Notes: a model not told the origin generated them from the letters alone. A stretch of DNA of 64,000 nt from Halobacteriovorax sp. HLS (GCF_004006665.1 NZ_QOCL01000004.1:1-64000), one strand, 5' to 3'; counted from the stretch's first letter, positions 43,577 through 54,679 are shown. Program-made: numbers and translations.

Positions 43577-46237
43577 GTGGCCCTATCTGAGGTTCCTTCG
43601 CTTGTTGACTTTGAAGAAGTCAAAAATCAATTAGAAACAGAAAGAAAAACCCTAGTTAAAATTAATAGTTTTAGTGATGATGAAGAGTATATTCGCTCTG
43701 TCGATGATGCTGCAATTATCTTGGACGTTATTAAAGGAATTCAACAATCCCTTTATACTTTCTTTTTAGAGTATCCTAGTCTTTTACCAATGTTCAGTAA
43801 GGATTACATTCCTTTTTACGACTTTGTTCAAAGAGCAAATATATTAGATCTTATCTTTTTAGATGACTGTTTATTTCCTGAACTAGAAAGATACTACTTT
43901 GGACAAGATGGTGGTTTGAGTCTAAATATTATGTCTCTACATCACAAGGCAATTTTAGAATGGATTGATAAAAAGAAATTGGCCCATGAAAAAGCTCAGA
44001 AGACTATTGAATTAGAGTTTGATTTAAATTTAAAGATGGCAGATTTATCATGTCAGTGTATGGACTGTGTGGCAACATTTAGAGCTCGCATGAGAGACTT
44101 CGTATTTAACAAGTGCACTGCAGATATTGATGAAGCCAAAGAGCAGATTGAAGAGAAACTAAACGGAACTATAGATCAAGTTAGTGATGTCTATAATACA
44201 CTTCAAAAAACTCTAGATAAGACGCTATATAAAGTTAGAACTAAATTAAAGAGATCATCGTTAAATAGATTAGAGTCACAAATAAAAAATAAGCTTCATG
44301 AAAAATATAATTATCCAAGTGATATAGCAAAAGATCATGCAAGAAATATAATTCCGATGTTAAGAAATTGGCTTTCAGATAATGAGTTCTCTGAAGACCT
44401 ACTTACGGAAAATGAGTATCATAAATTCTTCTCTCAACTTTCTTCGGATTTTTGGAAAGGGACAAAGAGTTTACAAAGAGATTTTAGAAAATTTGTTAGA
44501 GCAATTGTTGTCTTAAAGAAGAAGGATGTTTCCTCAAAAATCTTAAATGATTATTTAGGAGAGTTCTGGGTTCACTCAAGTTCCCGAGAGATAAAAAGAA
44601 AAATTATATATCATATGGGGCCGACTAACTCTGGTAAGACTTATCATGCAATAGAGGCCTTAAGTAAGGCAAAAACTGGTTGTTACCTTGCACCTCTAAG
44701 GTTATTAGCGGGAGAACTTTACGATACTTTAAACTCAAAAGGAGTAACTACAACATTACTCACAGGTGAAGAAGTAATAGAAAAGGAAGGATCTACACAT
44801 TTTTCATCAACGATTGAAATGGCAAGGTTTCAGCAAGTATTTGATTGCTGTGTTATTGATGAAATTCAAATGATTACAGATAAACAAAGAGGCTGGGCTT
44901 GGACTAGAGCACTTGTAAATATGTATTCTCCTGAAATCCATGTTTGTGGTGACGCCTCAGCTTATGAATTAGTTAAGAATGTTGCAGACCTTTGTGGTGA
45001 TGAGCTAATAGTTAAGAATTATGAAAGGATGACAACATTAAATGTTGAAAAAAGACCAATCGTTGTTGGTCAACTTGAAAAGAACGATGCTCTAATTGTT
45101 TTTTCAAGAAGAAATGCTCTTCGCTATAAGAGAGATCTTGAAAAAGTTGGATTTAAGGTTTCAATTGTTTATGGTCGTTTAAGTCCTGAGGTTAGAAGAG
45201 AACAGGCCCGAAAATTTGATGAGGGTGAAACAGATATTATCGTAAGTACAGATGCTATCTCTATGGGAATGAACTTACCCGTTAGAAGGATTGTATTTTC
45301 TACTTTATCTAAATATATTGATGGTCATGAGTTTATAATTTCTCACTCTGAAATTAAGCAAATTGCAGGTCGTGCAGGAAGATTTAAAAGATTTCCTACA
45401 GGCTTTGTTACTACTTTATCTAAAGTAGAAGGAGGGCTTCAAGAGATTACTGAAGCTCTAAATGCAACTTTAGATCAATCTACGAAATGTATGGTTGGTC
45501 CTGATTTGGATATATACAATCAAGTAAATGATGCTTTAACAAAGAATAATCTTCCTGGTCTAAAGTTATCAGAGTTTTTAAGACTCTTTCATACGATGGA
45601 TTTTAAGGCACCATTTTTCTGTGTTGAATTAAAAGAGATGATTGAACTTGCTGAAATGGTGGAAGACACTGACTCGGAAAACATCTTAACTACTTCAGAG
45701 ATTTTTGGTTTTGCTTGTGCTCCTGTTAATCAAGGACTTCAAGAACATGTTCAATATTATATGTGGATATTATCTCACTACGTGAAATCTCAACCAATTA
45801 TTAATGAGCCAATTGATCCTAAATCAGCCGATATAGACTATCTTGAGACTTCAATTAAGTGTGTCGAGCTCTATCAGTGGCTAGCACGCCACTTTGATAA
45901 TAAGAACTTTTCATTTAATGAAAATGATCTTCTAGAGAATAAATCTCTTGCTGTTGACCAGCTTAACGATCTCTTGTCTGCGAAAATTGTTCCGACTTGT
46001 TCTAGTTGCGGGTGCAAATTACCAGAAAAACATAAGTTTGCAATTTGTGAAGACTGCTTTCATCAAAGACGCTTTTCGAATCGAGGAGGGGGGCGCAGAG
46101 GTCCAAAGAGAGGGACTAGTCCAGCCGAAGCATTTAAAAAAGGGCTGTCTAAAAAAGCTGGAAAAAAGAGTACTTCAGCTAGAGAGGCCTTTAGTAAGAA
46201 AAGGACTAAGAAGAGGAAATTTACTGGTAAGAAATAA
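43577..46237 (+). CDS. SUV3-type DExH RNA helicase
   Basis: An 886-residue helicase. The motor (about 340-640) has Walker A GPTNSGKT (348-355), YLAPLRLLAGELYD, DEIQ box (428-431), SRRNA, ISMGMNL and the final QIAGRAGRF, all typical of mitochondrial and alphaproteobacterial SUV3. The 340-residue N-terminal region is not family-typical and contains CQCMDC. The C-terminus has a CSSCGC...CEDC zinc ribbon (808-825) and a Lys/Arg-rich tail for nucleic acid. The start is GTG after GGAGT. It is 2 nt from the DUF455 gene, hence the same operon. Confidence 0.88.
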   Translation: MALSEVPSLVDFEEVKNQLETERKTLVKINSFSDDEEYIRSVDDAAIILDVIKGIQQSLYTFFLEYPSLLPMFSKDYIPFYDFVQRANILDLIFLDDCLFPELERYYFGQDGGLSLNIMSLHHKAILEWIDKKKLAHEKAQKTIELEFDLNLKMADLSCQCMDCVATFRARMRDFVFNKCTADIDEAKEQIEEKLNGTIDQVSDVYNTLQKTLDKTLYKVRTKLKRSSLNRLESQIKNKLHEKYNYPSDIAKDHARNIIPMLRNWLSDNEFSEDLLTENEYHKFFSQLSSDFWKGTKSLQRDFRKFVRAIVVLKKKDVSSKILNDYLGEFWVHSSSREIKRKIIYHMGPTNSGKTYHAIEALSKAKTGCYLAPLRLLAGELYDTLNSKGVTTTLLTGEEVIEKEGSTHFSSTIEMARFQQVFDCCVIDEIQMITDKQRGWAWTRALVNMYSPEIHVCGDASAYELVKNVADLCGDELIVKNYERMTTLNVEKRPIVVGQLEKNDALIVFSRRNALRYKRDLEKVGFKVSIVYGRLSPEVRREQARKFDEGETDIIVSTDAISMGMNLPVRRIVFSTLSKYIDGHEFIISHSEIKQIAGRAGRFKRFPTGFVTTLSKVEGGLQEITEALNATLDQSTKCMVGPDLDIYNQVNDALTKNNLPGLKLSEFLRLFHTMDFKAPFFCVELKEMIELAEMVEDTDSENILTTSEIFGFACAPVNQGLQEHVQYYMWILSHYVKSQPIINEPIDPKSADIDYLETSIKCVELYQWLARHFDNKNFSFNENDLLENKSLAVDQLNDLLSAKIVPTCSSCGCKLPEKHKFAICEDCFHQRRFSNRGGGRRGPKRGTSPAEAFKKGLSKKAGKKSTSAREAFSKKRTKKRKFTGKK

Positions 46238-46239
46238 GT

Positions 46240-47061
46240 ATGAATATTGATGAATATGCCAAAAATATACTCTTTTCAAAAGACTTGGATGATAAATTAC
46301 AATCGCCAAGTATCGTGACTAGTTGTGATGATTTTGAAGTTCGTGAAAGACCAAGTTTTCCTGCTCGAGCAGATAATATGAAATTTCGAAAAGAACAAAC
46401 AAAGTTTCCTAAGGCAGGTTCTCTTCATATTCCAGAAAAACGAGCAATCACTTTGCACTTCTTCGCTAATCATGAGTTGTTGGCCATTGAAATGATGGCA
46501 GCTGCTATTCTTTGTTTACCAAATCGAAATGAAGAAGATTTAAAAGCTAAGAAGGGGCTGCTTGCTACGATTGCAGATGAGCAAAAACACTTCTTACTTT
46601 ATAAGAAAAGGATGGAGTCATTAGGCCTGGGCTTTGGAGAGGTCTCTTTAAATAGTTTCTTTTGGAACCAATATACGAAAGCGCAGACTTTAGACGATTT
46701 CTTTTCAATTGTTTCTTTAACCTTTGAAGGGGCAAACCTGGATTTTGCGAATTTCTATTCAGGAGTATTTGAAGATATCGAAGACTTCGAAACAAAGAAA
46801 ATTGTAGATATAGTCTATGAGGATGAAATTTCTCATGTTGCTTATGGAAGAAACTGGTTAAACAAATGGAAAGGAGATAAAAGTCTCTGGGAGTACTATT
46901 TATTACATTTGCCTGAAAACCTATCTCCAGCAAGAGCAAAGGGGATGCAGTTCGATCACTCTTCTAGAATTAGGGCCGGCCTTGATAATGACTTTATCTC
47001 AAATGTTGAAGCCTATAGAGATGACTTTTCGATAACTGACAGGAAACAATGGAAGAGCTGA
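46240..47061 (+). CDS. DUF455 ferritin-like diiron protein
   Basis: A 273-residue helical protein. The ferritin-like di-metal pattern is complete: ANHELLAIE, ADEQKHF (ExxH), TFEGANLDFANFY and YEDEISHVAYG (ExxH). This is the DUF455 family, related in fold to the tRNA hydroxylase MiaE but of unknown substrate. An iron-dependent oxygenase or oxidase reaction is likely. It follows the helicase by 2 nt and overlaps the ATP-grasp gene by 13 nt, so the three products are made together. Confidence 0.82.
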   Translation: MNIDEYAKNILFSKDLDDKLQSPSIVTSCDDFEVRERPSFPARADNMKFRKEQTKFPKAGSLHIPEKRAITLHFFANHELLAIEMMAAAILCLPNRNEEDLKAKKGLLATIADEQKHFLLYKKRMESLGLGFGEVSLNSFFWNQYTKAQTLDDFFSIVSLTFEGANLDFANFYSGVFEDIEDFETKKIVDIVYEDEISHVAYGRNWLNKWKGDKSLWEYYLLHLPENLSPARAKGMQFDHSSRIRAGLDNDFISNVEAYRDDFSITDRKQWKS

Positions 47062-48032
47062 TCTACGAAGTAGATTTTAACTTTGAAAGTAAGCTTGCAC
47101 AGAGAACTCAAAATAATAGTGCAATGTCTTGGTTTGATCATGTATTTTTCTTTATCAATGAAGAAGATAATTGCCAACTTTCAACAAAGTATAATTTTTC
47201 TAAACAATATCTCGAATATTTACGTGATATAGGTATCAAAAATACTAAAGTGACTTCTGCTCGTCCTACTAAACTTTGGTGGTCGAATGATGATAATTTA
47301 GAATTAAATAAAAAACTAAATTCAAAAATAAAAATGAGTCAATTAGGAATTGATCAGGGCTGGATTCCAATAAGAACATCAATTGGTCTTGAAACAGCTC
47401 ATATGTACGATGGAAGAATTGTTGCACGTGAAGAGTGGGGTTTTTCTGGTAGAGGGACATATTTTATTAATAAACATGAGAAGATTTCTCAAAAAGGAGA
47501 ATTTGTTCTTAGTGAATATGTCAGAAAAATAAAAGACTATGGAGTTACGTATTTCGCGAATAGTACTGAGTACTTTATTGTTGAGAATTTTATTGATACT
47601 AGAGGACAGTTCTGTGGAGGACAAGTCATTAGTACTAAAGATTTTGTAGATGAAGTCGGTGAAGACTCGATAGAGAAGATGAGTCAAATAAGAGACTTCT
47701 TATTTAAACTTGATTTAAAAAAGTCTATTCAGATTGATTGTTTCTTATATGAGAATGGATTTCATCCCTTTGTAGAAGTAAATTATAGAAAAACTATGGG
47801 AATGATGATCTATGCCCTTAGAAAATATATTGAAAAAGAGTTTTATTTCTGGAGAATATATAAACCAAAAAAAGAGTTAAGTTTCGATATAATAAATGAG
47901 GCCCTAACACAGAAGGGCATACACTTTATAATTACATCACCTGTAGACAAATTTGTTTCAATTTGTTGCGGAAGTGATTCTGTTAAACAACTTGAATTAG
48001 ATAGGGCATGGTTAGAGAAATTTTTTAGCTAA
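47049..48032 (+). CDS. ATP-grasp-like ligase of unknown substrate
   Basis: A 327-residue protein. Residues about 115-260 follow the ATP-grasp fold: GRIVAREEWGFSGRGTYFI (ATP-binding Lys/Gly-rich loop), FVLSEYVRKI, YFIVENFID, QIDCFLYENGFHPFVEVNYR (Mg-binding Glu and Asn). Such enzymes join a carboxylate to an amine or thiol using ATP. The N-terminal 110 residues are not recognised. AGGAAA precedes the ATG. Paired with a diiron protein, it may build or modify a peptide or small molecule. Overlaps the convergent aldolase by 21 nt. Confidence 0.65.
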   Translation: MEELIYEVDFNFESKLAQRTQNNSAMSWFDHVFFFINEEDNCQLSTKYNFSKQYLEYLRDIGIKNTKVTSARPTKLWWSNDDNLELNKKLNSKIKMSQLGIDQGWIPIRTSIGLETAHMYDGRIVAREEWGFSGRGTYFINKHEKISQKGEFVLSEYVRKIKDYGVTYFANSTEYFIVENFIDTRGQFCGGQVISTKDFVDEVGEDSIEKMSQIRDFLFKLDLKKSIQIDCFLYENGFHPFVEVNYRKTMGMMIYALRKYIEKEFYFWRIYKPKKELSFDIINEALTQKGIHFIITSPVDKFVSICCGSDSVKQLELDRAWLEKFFS

Positions 48033-49847: not shown

Positions 49848-49903
49848 ATATGGATCAAAATTAAAATATTTTTAGTTAAGAAATATTTAATTGAGATCCA
49901 TAT
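49848..49903 (+). promoter_or_regulatory. Long stem-loop covering the start codon of the first cheA
   Basis: ATATGGATC (49848-49856) pairs with GATCCATAT (49895-49903), which includes the first two bases of the ATG at 49902. Inside, AATTAAAATATTT (49859-49871) pairs with AAATATTTAATT (49881-49892) with one bulged A and a 2x2 AA/GA internal loop. The apical loop is 9 nt. The total is about 21 bp over 56 nt. No good Shine-Dalgarno sequence lies outside it. Confidence 0.7.
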
Positions 49904-52631
49904 GACAGAACAAAATGCAGCTATAATTCACGAGTTTTTAATAGAGTCTTTTGAGAACCTCTCTGGCATTAGCGAAGAGATTACACAATATGAAAAAGAT
50001 CATAGCAATAGTGAATTATTAAATTCAATATATAGAAAAGTACATACCCTAAAAGGGTCCTCCAGTTTTCTCTCATTTAAAATTCTAGAAAGTGTTACTC
50101 ACCATGCTGAAAATATCTTAGATATGATTCGTGAAGGTGAGATGGAAATGGATTCTGACATTATTGATATATTGCTTGAAACATTTGATGCTTGTCTTGA
50201 AATGTTAAAAAATATTGAAGCAAATGGGACAGAAGGTGAGAATAAATATTCTGATTTAAATGCAAGGCTCTTAAAAGTAGAGTCAAATGAGTCCATCGAT
50301 GATGGACTTCGAAAAAAGTTTGAAGAGCAGAAAATTTCAGAAACCTCTGATCTTCCTGCCTTGAATATTAAACTAGAAGTAATGAACGAAACAAAACTTC
50401 AGAATAAATCTTCAAGTGAAGAACTTGCATTAGTAACACAAAATCAAAATGCTTCAGAGTCTGTAAAAACTGAAGTAGTAAAGCTGGCCACTGAAGACGT
50501 GCTAGAAAAGAAACCGGAAGTAAAGAAAGCAGAGACTAAAAAAGTAGACCTAAAGACTGAGGAGCCAAAGAAGGTGATTAGTCTTACGGATAGTGTCGTA
50601 AGAGTTAATGTTCAATTACTTGATAAAATTATGAATGTTGTAGGAGAACTTGTCCTTAATAGAAATCAAATATTGCAGTATGCGAATATTTCAGACTCAC
50701 CTGATTTAACAAGATTAGCGCAACAACTCAATGTCATAACAACCGATTTACAAACTGATATTATGACAACAAGAATGCAGCCTGTTGGAACTGTTTTAAC
50801 AAAATTTGAAAGAATTGTTAGAGATTTAAGTCGAGAACAAGGTAAATCCATTAAGCTAACAATTAGTGGAAAAGAAACAGAGCTTGATAAAACTCTCTTG
50901 GAGGCCATACGTGATCCAATGACTCACCTTGTGAGAAATTCTGTTGATCATGGTATTGAAGACTCAAGCAGAAGACTCGAGAATGGAAAGAGTGAAGATG
51001 GACATATACATATCAAGTCTTATCACGAGGGTGGGCAAGTTACTATAGAGATCTCTGATGATGGTAATGGAATTAACCCAGAAGTTATTCTCGCTAAGGC
51101 AATTAGTAAGAACCTTGTTAGTAAAGAGAAGGGCGCGACTTTGTCTGAGAGACAGATTCTTAACTTAATTTTTACACCAGGCTTCTCAACAGCTGAGCAA
51201 GTGACAAATATTTCAGGACGTGGCGTTGGAATGGATGTCGTTAAGAGTAATATTGAAAAGATCGGAGGCTCAGTAGACGTTCACTCCGTTGTTGGAAATG
51301 GAACAACATTTAAGTTGAAGATCCCGTTAACTTTAGCAATTGTTCCAGCTCTCGTTGTACGCTCAAGCGGAGAAACTTTTGCAATACCTCAGATAAATCT
51401 AGTCGAGCTGGTTCGAATTGAGAACGAAGGAAATGAGAATCATATTGAAAAGTTACTTGAGTCTGAATTTTTCAGATTAAGGGGAGAACTAATACCTGTT
51501 TTTAGACTTGGGGAAAGTTTAAAGCTCTTGGATAAAGATGAAGTTGTTGAAGACATTAATGAAGACTGTGTAAATATAGTAATCTTAAATGCTGAAGGAC
51601 AATTTTATGGGTTAATTGTAGATCATGTTTTAGATACGGAAGAAATTGTTGTTAAGCCACTTTCGAGAAAGTTAAAGGATTTAAACTTATTTGGAGGGGC
51701 AACTATTATGGGTGATGGGAGTGTTGCGCTCATTGTTGATGCCCTGGGATTCTTTAATTCTGTCGACAGTGGAGCCTCTGCCAGAACAGACGAGCACGAC
51801 TTCCTAGAAGAAAAAGAACAGATTAAGAATGGAGAAACGCAAGAGATACTCTTGACTCAACTTGGAGATTCTCGCGACTATGGAATACCTCTATGTCTTG
51901 TGAATAGATTGGAAGAATTTCCGTTAAAGGATATTGAATGGACTGGTGATCAACCCTTAGTTCGGTATGGGAATCAGCCAATGTTGCTAATTAACCTAGA
52001 GGAGTGTTTAGAGCTTGAAGGGACTTCAAGTTTACTCAGTGAAGAAAAGGATATTACTGTCGCATGTATAGTGACTAAGGTTCGTGGAAGTTACTTTGGT
52101 TTAGTTGTTAAAGAAATAAAAGATATTGCTTTTAGTGAAAGTGACGTCAATGAAGAGATGAGCGATAGAGATGGAATAATGGGAACAATCTTCATTAATG
52201 GTAAGACTGTATCACTACTTGATGTTCACAAAGTTATTGATAGTAAGAAGAGATCAAAAAATATTGCATCTAATAATTTAAGTGTTCTACTCGTTGATGA
52301 TTCGCCTTTACATCAAAGAGTTCAAAAAGAAATTATTACTGAACTTGGCTATTGTGTAACAACTGCATGTGATGGTGTTGATGGAATGCAGAAATTTAGT
52401 GAAATGCCAGATCTAAAGCTAATAGTGACAGATATTGAAATGCCTAATTTAAATGGTTGGGAATTTATTAAAAAAGTTCGAGAAACAAATCCAAATATCC
52501 CTGTTATCGGAATTTCTAGTCGCATCACTTCTAAAGATGAAGAACGTGGAGAGAGAAATGGATTTAATTGTTTTATAGATAAAAGCAACCAAGAGAAAAT
52601 GACAGAAGCAATCCTGAATTGTGTCGGATAA
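49902..52631 (+). CDS. cheA: CheA-type hybrid histidine kinase (Hpt-kinase-CheW-CheW-REC)
   Basis: A 909-residue cytosolic kinase. Hpt with phospho-His48 (VHTLKGSSSF), Ala/Lys/Glu linker (150-225) without a clear P2 domain, dimerisation region (about 228-295), HATPase with RNSVDHGIE (N box), ISDDGNGINP (G1) and GRGVGMDVVKSNI (G2). A CheW domain (about 480-620), a second CheW-like module (about 640-785) and a receiver (about 795-909) with Asp844 in VTDIEMPN follow. It has a long start-codon hairpin upstream. It is the first gene of cheA-cheW-mcp-cheB. Confidence 0.93.
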   Translation: MTEQNAAIIHEFLIESFENLSGISEEITQYEKDHSNSELLNSIYRKVHTLKGSSSFLSFKILESVTHHAENILDMIREGEMEMDSDIIDILLETFDACLEMLKNIEANGTEGENKYSDLNARLLKVESNESIDDGLRKKFEEQKISETSDLPALNIKLEVMNETKLQNKSSSEELALVTQNQNASESVKTEVVKLATEDVLEKKPEVKKAETKKVDLKTEEPKKVISLTDSVVRVNVQLLDKIMNVVGELVLNRNQILQYANISDSPDLTRLAQQLNVITTDLQTDIMTTRMQPVGTVLTKFERIVRDLSREQGKSIKLTISGKETELDKTLLEAIRDPMTHLVRNSVDHGIEDSSRRLENGKSEDGHIHIKSYHEGGQVTIEISDDGNGINPEVILAKAISKNLVSKEKGATLSERQILNLIFTPGFSTAEQVTNISGRGVGMDVVKSNIEKIGGSVDVHSVVGNGTTFKLKIPLTLAIVPALVVRSSGETFAIPQINLVELVRIENEGNENHIEKLLESEFFRLRGELIPVFRLGESLKLLDKDEVVEDINEDCVNIVILNAEGQFYGLIVDHVLDTEEIVVKPLSRKLKDLNLFGGATIMGDGSVALIVDALGFFNSVDSGASARTDEHDFLEEKEQIKNGETQEILLTQLGDSRDYGIPLCLVNRLEEFPLKDIEWTGDQPLVRYGNQPMLLINLEECLELEGTSSLLSEEKDITVACIVTKVRGSYFGLVVKEIKDIAFSESDVNEEMSDRDGIMGTIFINGKTVSLLDVHKVIDSKKRSKNIASNNLSVLLVDDSPLHQRVQKEIITELGYCVTTACDGVDGMQKFSEMPDLKLIVTDIEMPNLNGWEFIKKVRETNPNIPVIGISSRITSKDEERGERNGFNCFIDKSNQEKMTEAILNCVG

Positions 52632-52640
52632 GGAGAAGTT

Positions 52641-53117
52641 GTGGAATTAAATATAGATCAATCAATGTATACAAGCTCTGACTTAAATCAGTTATGTGGC
52701 TTCAAGATTGGAAGTGGACACTATGCTGTGTCTGTTCTGGAGGTTCAAGAGGTTATAAAGCCGCAGCTTTTAACTCCGGTACCTCTAGCGCCAAAGTATA
52801 TTAAAGGTTTAATTAACTTAAGAGGACAGATCGTAACAGCGATAAGTTTAAGGACGTTGTTTGGATTAGATGAAATAGATCGAGAAGATTATATGAATAT
52901 CATTGTTCGCTCTGGAGATTCATTATACTCCCTCGTTGTTGATGAAATTCTAGATGTAATAGATGTTGAAAAAGAGACTTATGAAACGACCCCTGAAACT
53001 CTAGATGAAAAAATTAAAAAATTTATTAGTGGTGTTTATAAATTAGAAAAGAAATTATTAATCTTATTAGACTTGGAAAAAGTTTTAAATATTGAACGAA
53101 GTGAGGACTTAAAATGA
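52641..53117 (+). CDS. cheW: CheW adaptor
   Basis: A 158-residue coupling protein linking receptor and kinase. Family segments [41 protein letters not shown] and [14 protein letters not shown] are intact. The start is GTG at 52641 with AAGGAGAAG ahead. The last bases overlap the receptor gene (ATGA), so the two are co-translated. Confidence 0.95.
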
Positions 53118-54679
53118 GAGCACAAAGTGTAGAAATGGTTAGAGAAGATAATGATCAAGAAAAAGGGACTGGGCAAAACTACGAGCAGATGCTTGAGCTA
53201 TCCCCAATTAATACTCTTATGGCAACACCAGACGGTGTTCTGACTTACATGAATTCTAATTCAATTAAGACTCTAAGAACTCTAGAGCAGTATCTTCCTG
53301 ATAGAGTAGATAATCTTGTTGGCAAGAAGATTGACTGGTTTCACAAAGTTCCAGACCATCAATTAGGTATCATCAGAAACCCCGCAAACTTACCACATAG
53401 GGCGACTATTAACGTAGGACCAGAAAAATTAGATCTTCTAGTATCTGCGATAATGTCTGAATCAGGTGACTATTTAGGACCAATGGTAACATGGGAAGTT
53501 GTTACAGATAAATTAAAGCTAGAGGCCGAAATGGCAAGAGCAAGTCAAATGGTTGATAAGTCTCCAATAAATACGATGATGGCGACACCTGATGGAAAAA
53601 TGGTCTACATGAATGAGGCTGCAGCTAAGACGCTTAGAACTCTTGAGGATAGACTACCAGCAAAAGTAGATAATTTAGTTGGAAACAGTATCGATTGGTT
53701 TCATAAAAACCCTGCTGGACCTAAGAATATTATATCTGATCCAGCGAATTTACCACATAAAGCAATTATCAGTGTTGGAGAAGATAAGTTAGATCTTTTG
53801 ATCTCAGGAATTTCCGCCAATGATGGATCTTATCTTGGAGCAATGGTTACATGGGATGTTGTTACAGATAAGGTTAATCTCGTTAAAGAACTCACTAAGA
53901 GTGCATCCGAGCTTAATGATTCAGCTCAAAATTTACAAACTGTTTCGAGTTCACTTTCAGCAGGAGCTGAAGAAACTTCGGCGCAAGCTAATACTGCTAG
54001 TGTTGCATCTGAAGAAGTTAATGCCGGTGTTCAAACTGTTGCTTCAAATATGGAAGAGATGGTTGCAGCGATTAAGGAAATTACAAAAACTACCAACGAA
54101 GCTTCTTCAATGACTAATGATGCAATGAAGATGGCGAAGAATACTAACGAAATAATTTCGCAGCTTGGTGAAAGTAGTATGGATATTGGTAATGTAATAA
54201 AAGTTATTTCTTCAATTGCTCAGCAAACCAACCTTCTTGCTCTTAATGCAACTATTGAAGCAGCTAGAGCAGGTGAAGCTGGAAAAGGGTTCGCTGTTGT
54301 TGCAAATGAAGTTAAAGAGCTTGCGAAGCAAACTGCCAAAGCAACATCAGATATTACTAAGAAGATTGAAAATATTCAAAGTGATTCAAAAGGTGCCGTT
54401 AATGCCATCAAAGAGATTAGCGAGGCCATTGAGAAAGTAAATGGTTATGCAGGTAATATTGCTGCGTCTGTTGAAGAACAAGCTGCAACGACTAATGAAG
54501 TAACAAGAATTGTTACAGAATCAGCTGAAGGGGTTAAACAAATTAATGAGAATATTTCTCAGGTTTCTCAAGCAGCAGCAACAACAGGTAAAGATGCTCA
54601 GAGTGCTCAAGAAGCGAGCAGAATCTTAACTGAAATTTCAAACAATCTTCAAATACATGTAGAGAAGATAAAAGTGTAG
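53114..54679 (+). CDS. Soluble methyl-accepting chemotaxis protein with two tandem PAS domains
   Basis: A 521-residue receptor without membrane helices, hence cytosolic. Residues 31-130 and 151-250 are two PAS-like domains with an exact 120-residue period and no gaps (about 64 of 100 positions identical by eye). A linker with HAMP-like Ser/Ala helices follows, then the signalling hairpin: [35 protein letters not shown], split at its tip as usual. No C-terminal CheR/CheB tether pentapeptide is present. It sits between cheW and cheB in the same operon and would sense an internal ligand, redox state or heme. Confidence 0.93.
53204..53863 (+). repeat. Tandem duplication of the PAS-coding segment (360-nt period)
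   Basis: Codons 31-130 and 151-250 of the receptor encode aligned domains with identical blocks such as KTLRTLE, VDNLVG, IDWFHK, ANLPH and KLDLL. The DNA has diverged enough that this is an old duplication. Confidence 0.85.

Follow-up and report, generated by a model that had tools for sequence, protein, structure and literature searches.

Introduction

The beta-ethynylserine pathway pairs the oxidase BesC with the ATP-grasp ligase BesA. In the mangotoxin pathway (mboABCDEF), a helical diiron oxidase (HDO) and an ATP-grasp amino-acid ligase likewise act together (PMC13185094, a survey of HDOs), and operons combining diiron oxygenases with ATP-grasp enzymes have been predicted (PMC2922099). 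ATP-grasp enzymes also include protein ligases, and an R2K/CDC123 clade with two conserved lysines in its RAGNYA domain (PMC4431377).

Neither the HDO/ATP-grasp clusters of the former survey nor the operons of PMC2922099 use DUF455. The open-access papers searched for DUF455/COG2833 assign no function to this family and give no substrate, product or activity for any member, and we found none in the open-access literature that describes DUF455 together with an ATP-grasp enzyme. Here we analyse a 64,000-nucleotide stretch of DNA from Halobacteriovorax sp. HLS (the window) in which a DUF455 gene is tied to a ligase partner. As in mangotoxin and BesC/BesA biosynthesis, the proposal is a diiron oxidase working with an ATP-grasp ligase, and our ligase matches BesA, among others, in structure. 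Unlike the HDO clusters, in which a heme-oxygenase-like HDO operates within a secondary-metabolite cluster, the module in the window consists of a ferritin-like DUF455 protein and a ligase, only two genes, and is kept across one bacterial family and fused in others. A diiron oxidase with an ATP-grasp ligase is known as a kind; the family, the fusion and the core-genome retention are new.

Results

The locus comprises three genes on the same strand (Table 1). The helicase and DUF455 ORFs are separated by 2 nt, and the DUF455 and ATP-grasp ORFs overlap by 13 nt, exactly the layout given in an earlier note on this DNA, which proposed that all three belong to one pathway. The ATP-grasp gene has its own AGGA-type ribosome site within the 3' end of DUF455, and the next gene downstream overlaps the ligase by 21 nt. 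Further downstream, at 49902-54679, lie genes that read as CheA-like, CheW-like and methyl-accepting-type chemotaxis genes.

Table 1. Positions of the genes and conserved motifs in the window.
Feature	Position	Strand	Remarks
Suv3-type RNA helicase	43577..46237	+	886 aa, GTG start; conserved syntenic neighbour, judged outside the functional unit
DUF455 (PF04305) ferritin-like protein	46240..47061	+	273 aa
E84 codon, first di-metal ligand (helix 1)	46489..46491	+	invariant in alignment
E114xxH117 di-metal motif	46579..46590	+	invariant in alignment
E163 codon, di-metal ligand (helix 3)	46726..46728	+	invariant in alignment
E196xxH199 di-metal motif	46825..46836	+	invariant in alignment
ATP-grasp ligase, unnamed family	47049..48032	+	327 aa
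D230 to G251, ATP-grasp metal/phosphate motif region, ends VEVNYRKTMG	47736..47801	+	invariant residues, 50 sequences

The product of the second gene matches PF04305 with an E-value of 3e-47 (161.8 bits against a curated Pfam cut-off of 34.3). Its complete di-metal set, E84, E114xxH117, E163 and E196xxH199, is invariant in an alignment of 25 homologues that includes two solo DUF455 members, in agreement with the earlier description of a ferritin-like protein with intact ExxH motifs. Each of four long helices (residues 65-92, 98-127, 151-179 and 183-210) bears its ligands, giving the four-helix bundle with E, ExxH, E and ExxH that characterizes ferritin-like di-metal carboxylate proteins. The nearest solved fold is that of aldehyde-deformylating oxygenase (ADO), a weak match (E 0.016, TM 0.42) with which similarly weak sequence-level matches agree. 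ADO ligands follow the order E, ExxH, E, ExxH, and this order and the helical core are common to DUF455, ADO and other ferritin-like di-iron oxidases; unlike ADO, DUF455 has extra N- and C-terminal parts and no lipid partner enzyme nearby. The ADO fold match, the MoxR/VWA neighbours of some fusions and the co-distribution with a COX1-type oxidase (see below) point indirectly to O2-dependent turnover at a putative di-iron site, and a di-iron oxidase that depends on O2 is the likeliest reading of DUF455.

No Pfam or NCBIfam model recognizes the product of the third gene, in contrast to the named ATP-grasp peptide ligases. Its assignment as an ATP-grasp enzyme in the earlier note is correct on three counts. 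Residues D230, E243, N245, R247 and G251 are invariant in family alignments of 24 and then 50 sequences, as are T249 and M250 in the larger one; a PDB search with the family profile retrieves PurK (3orq) with an E-value of 4e-4; and the AlphaFold (AF2) model (pLDDT 94.6) matches solved ATP-grasp structures with E-values down to 8e-13, placing the protein within this fold. K93 is present, as is the ExN motif formed by E243 and N245. The B-domain ATP-binding lysine position is occupied by Arg127 in the window (47427-47429) and its nearest relatives (5 of the 50 homologues), the other 45 having Lys; the rest of the motif is intact. The protein evolves fast, with mostly 19-29% identity beyond the genus.

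The best structural matches of the ligase are the Streptomyces ATP-grasp peptide ligase 8ynd, 3wvq/3wvr, 7r8q (SAOUHSC_02373), BesA (8yi6), PylC and PurK, so that the predicted structure is closest to peptide and amino-acid ligases. The whole-fold matches to the peptide ligases 8ynd, 3wvq/3wvr and the LdmS-like 7r8q have E-values from 8e-13 to 4e-11, and the ExN metal motif is common to them; at 327 residues, however, the window ligase is shorter than 8ynd and 3wvq (about 410-430), with 11-15% identity. A relative from the Chlamydiota matches the NCBIfam model of the Asp-Met dipeptide ligase LdmS at 1.5e-5, with 24 bits against a cut-off of 475, and no cut-off of LdmS or another named peptide ligase was reached in NCBIfam or Pfam. 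Open-access papers on LdmS yielded nothing functional.

When the ATP-grasp protein was used as a query, matches were found in 24 of 59 relatives, all within the window's own family (f1). The ligase gene adjoins DUF455 in 22 of these, and in one (G033) the locus is broken by contig ends. The remaining genome (G002) keeps both genes with DUF455 at another place, the ligase still following the helicase. There DUF455 (L062:5048-5866) is outside the operon and comes about 170 nt after a gene for a pyridine-nucleotide disulfide oxidoreductase. Of 43 loci in the named genome collection, 41 have DUF455 and ligase spaced by -47 to +26 nt, and the other two have a gap of about 435 nt. The earlier note had held that the neighbourhood would be due to chance if the two were unlinked nearly everywhere; for the ATP-grasp gene the opposite is seen, the linkage extending to fusions in seven other families.

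A tally drawn from 340 genomes of the phylum gave 94 sampled f1 genomes with both DUF455 and the ligase and at least 20 with neither. The departures are as follows: a DUF455 match that runs into a contig end, with no ligase (G011); weak DUF455 matches only, again with no ligase (G203, G295 and G310); a ligase with a trace DUF455 match only (G268); and the two genes about 1.3 kb apart (G006). In examples that lack the pair (L081, L082, L083 and L084), the helicase abuts a gene that normally comes after the ligase. A COX1-type oxidase is present in every f1 relative that has the pair. Among eight without it, three have no such oxidase and one has nothing beyond a form of NOR-like size. This distribution (p about 0.001 in a naive Fisher test, uncorrected for kinship and confounded by kinship and assembly gaps) fits O2 use.

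Outside f1, most ATP-grasp matches in the phylum sample share an open frame with DUF455. The two are joined in a single ORF, DUF455 first, in 16 genomes that were read directly (L077, L180, L181, L182, L183, L184, L185, L187, L188, L190, L191, L211, L212, L213, L214 and L216) and, from tables, in G212. These proteins of about 590-800 residues, such as that of 594 in L187 and that of 654 in L077, come from seven families (f3, f8, f12, f14, f20, f22 and f23). In a tree, ligase-partnered DUF455 proteins, both split and fused, are set apart from solo DUF455 by a branch with 100/99 support, although long branches limit the detail. The solo proteins, of Bdellovibrio type and from other families, belong to the same Pfam family and have the same metal residues, but have no ATP-grasp partner. 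DUF455 and this ATP-grasp family are thus a real functional pair. Because they are kept, lost or even fused as one unit, the two probably make or modify one amino-acid-like product together.

The surroundings of the fusions differ between families. In f12, six of the eight fusion loci carry upstream genes for a MoxR-type AAA protein and a VWA_CoxE protein. The spacing is 1 to 9 nt in four of the six, one of which has an intervening gene for a DCC-type thiol-disulfide oxidoreductase, and about 560 nt and 820 nt in the remaining ones; an amino-acid permease gene stands ahead of the MoxR/VWA genes in five of the six. Insertion of non-heme iron requires NorQ/NorD, which are proteins of the MoxR/VWA kind (PMC9976466), and by analogy it is plausible that the f12 proteins load metal into the fusion. 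In both f23 loci the fusion and a glutathione synthetase gene are divergently oriented, and in one f22 locus an MpaA-like (murein-peptide-amidase-like) peptidase gene overlaps the fusion. Across families the pair is accompanied by no transporter of its own, no precursor peptide and no additional tailoring gene. The earlier note suggested looking for a short substrate gene near the pair; none was found beside it, nor was a graspetide/RiPP precursor gene at the positions adjoining the ligase, where tightly packed genes upstream and an overlapping gene downstream leave no space for one.

The helicase has a different history. It matches the Pfam models DEXQc_Suv3 (E 2e-61, 206 bits against a cut-off of 27) and Helicase_C (E 8e-15), and SUV3_C reaches 12.5 bits against a cut-off of 27. 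Its description as a SUV3 helicase is therefore sound, but the zinc ribbon also attributed to it is visible only as a C-terminal CxxC..CxxC for which no Pfam zinc-ribbon model scored above cut-off. True Suv3 is present in every sampled f1 genome, pair or no pair; outside f1 it occurs only in G043, the other matches in the phylum being weak (E about 1e-8 to 1e-10), and the fusion genomes mostly lack it. In the named genome collection, helicase and DUF455 are less than 30 nt apart or apparently overlap in 38 of 42 loci and are 1.6 kb apart in four, and other genes separate the two in 4 of the 42. An antisense gene of about 510 residues without a Pfam match lies between them in L208 (5290-6825), L074 (6868-8376), L069 and L090. 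The wider region is syntenic in f1, with genes for a peptidase, an NMO-like enzyme, an aldolase-type protein and an HD-domain protein. Since Suv3 is present without the pair and the region is syntenic across the family, we judge the helicase to be a neighbour, co-transcribed at most and outside the chemistry. On account of its distribution and synteny, the trio as one pathway was rejected; of that proposal the DUF455/ATP-grasp pair stands.

DUF455 also occurs alone. Many f6 (Bdellovibrio-type) genomes have it, and every f6 genome with DUF455 is without a ligase match. Around the solo genes in f6 and related families (L076, L194, L196, L197 and L198) we observed YebC, RsuA-like pseudouridine synthase, PTPS/QueD-looking and SDR-looking genes, the PTPS and SDR labels being given by sequence reading. 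Plasmid DUF455 genes (Sinorhizobium, Thioclava and Geobacillus) have varied contexts and no ligase nearby.

Discussion

An oxygenase and a ligase acting on a small molecule or peptide, as first proposed for this locus, remains the best reading. On balance we lean towards a single two-enzyme module in which a di-iron oxidase and a peptide-type ligase serve one amino-acid-derived substrate. The observations behind it are the gene pairing, the joint loss, the natural fusion, the intact metal and ATP-grasp motifs and the folds; from them we infer redox activity for DUF455, a common substrate, an amide-type bond and the order of the steps. DUF455, a ferritin-like oxidase or oxygenase with a di-iron (or Fe/Mn) site, would alter an amino-acid-derived or peptide substrate using O2, and the ATP-grasp enzyme would activate a carboxylate as an acyl phosphate and join it to an amine. 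Ligation could come before or after oxidation, and the product would be a peptide-like small molecule. Speaking against this reading are the weak fold match to ADO, the occurrence of each partner without the other elsewhere, the fast divergence of the ligase and its Arg127 in the window's lineage. By its fusion to a peptide-type ligase, DUF455 gains a defined partner in function and a class of reaction that can be tested. Across a whole family whose members are mostly predators, the two genes are retained together and lack the usual accompaniments of a secondary-metabolite cluster, so that what they make may be a cofactor of general use or a constituent of the cell and not an antibiotic. A more ambitious proposal, which we advance tentatively, is that this phylum of predators (with the named relatives Bdellovibrionota, Bacteriovoracaceae and Halobacteriovorax) has an undescribed core-genome pathway to a new amino-acid-derived cofactor or metabolite. 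DUF455 would be a new type of ferritin-like oxidase in it, loaded by MoxR/VWA chaperones in certain lineages and in many cases joined to the ligase in one protein.

Alternatively, the pair might modify a protein, DUF455 hydroxylating or oxidizing a side chain and the ATP-grasp enzyme attaching an amino acid or a peptide as a tag, in the manner of RimK on ribosomal protein S6. The want of dedicated transporter, precursor and tailoring genes would suit such a housekeeping modification, and protein ligases exist among the ATP-grasps (PMC4431377). However, the structures that the ligase matches best are those of small-peptide ligases and PurK rather than RimK, and in some families the genes found by the fusion (amino-acid permease, glutathione synthetase and murein-peptide-amidase-like) suggest small substrates, which makes this alternative unlikely.

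We consider it improbable that the pair acts on RNA, with the helicase presenting the RNA, DUF455 resembling the ferritin-like tRNA hydroxylase MiaE and the ATP-grasp enzyme adding a group to the base. The Suv3 neighbour at the window locus is what suggests it, together with the YebC and RsuA-type genes beside solo DUF455 and the presence of MiaE among the weak fold matches (rank 39, E 2.4). Yet Suv3 is missing from most fusion genomes and present where the pair is missing, the YebC and RsuA genes are on the strand opposite to solo DUF455 in the loci read, and Pfam and NCBIfam found no RNA-binding domain in DUF455 or the ligase. The chances are similarly slim for a role in stress defence, in which DUF455 would be a protective metal-binding or peroxide-consuming protein and the ligase would make a supporting thiol or chelating peptide. 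Its ferritin-like fold would allow this, as would the glutathione synthetase genes of f23, the DCC-type gene in one f12 operon and the peroxiredoxin gene that precedes solo DUF455 in Sinorhizobium. But a storage protein would gain no obvious benefit from fusion to a ligase, MoxR/VWA chaperones would better fit a catalytic iron site, and the thiol genes are not conserved across families. Finally, that all three genes are mere neighbours in a slowly rearranging region, the explanation we adopt for the helicase in view of the f1 synteny, is very improbable for the pair, as joint absence, tight overlap and above all fusion in seven other families are not expected from synteny and refute it.

Relatives of the ligase are also found apart from DUF455, which suggests that the fold is a general tool that has been paired with DUF455 in this phylum. 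In Prevotella a related ATP-grasp is kept with DUF455 in none of 10 genomes, and in one Chlamydiota genome both are present, at separate places. Given the Prevotella ligase and the widespread solo DUF455, neither reaction is strictly dependent on the other. In 13 of 30 loci, mostly from Prevotella (L129, L131, L134, L140 and others), the related ATP-grasp gene is followed, with an overlap of a few nt or a short gap, by what looks like a GH43-type glycosidase gene; these neighbourhoods were uninformative. A distant relative on a Streptomyces plasmid (L200:9977-11173) lies with radical SAM, ACP, Gfo/Idh/MocA, phosphotransferase and condensation-domain genes, and was set aside, since its similarity of only 22% is at the general ATP-grasp level. 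In two f1 genomes (L192:5335-7974 and L207:4631-7278) a copy of the ligase with no adjoining DUF455 is fused to or beside a carbamoyltransferase, with a glycosyltransferase gene, possibly a surface-glycan or metabolite cluster.
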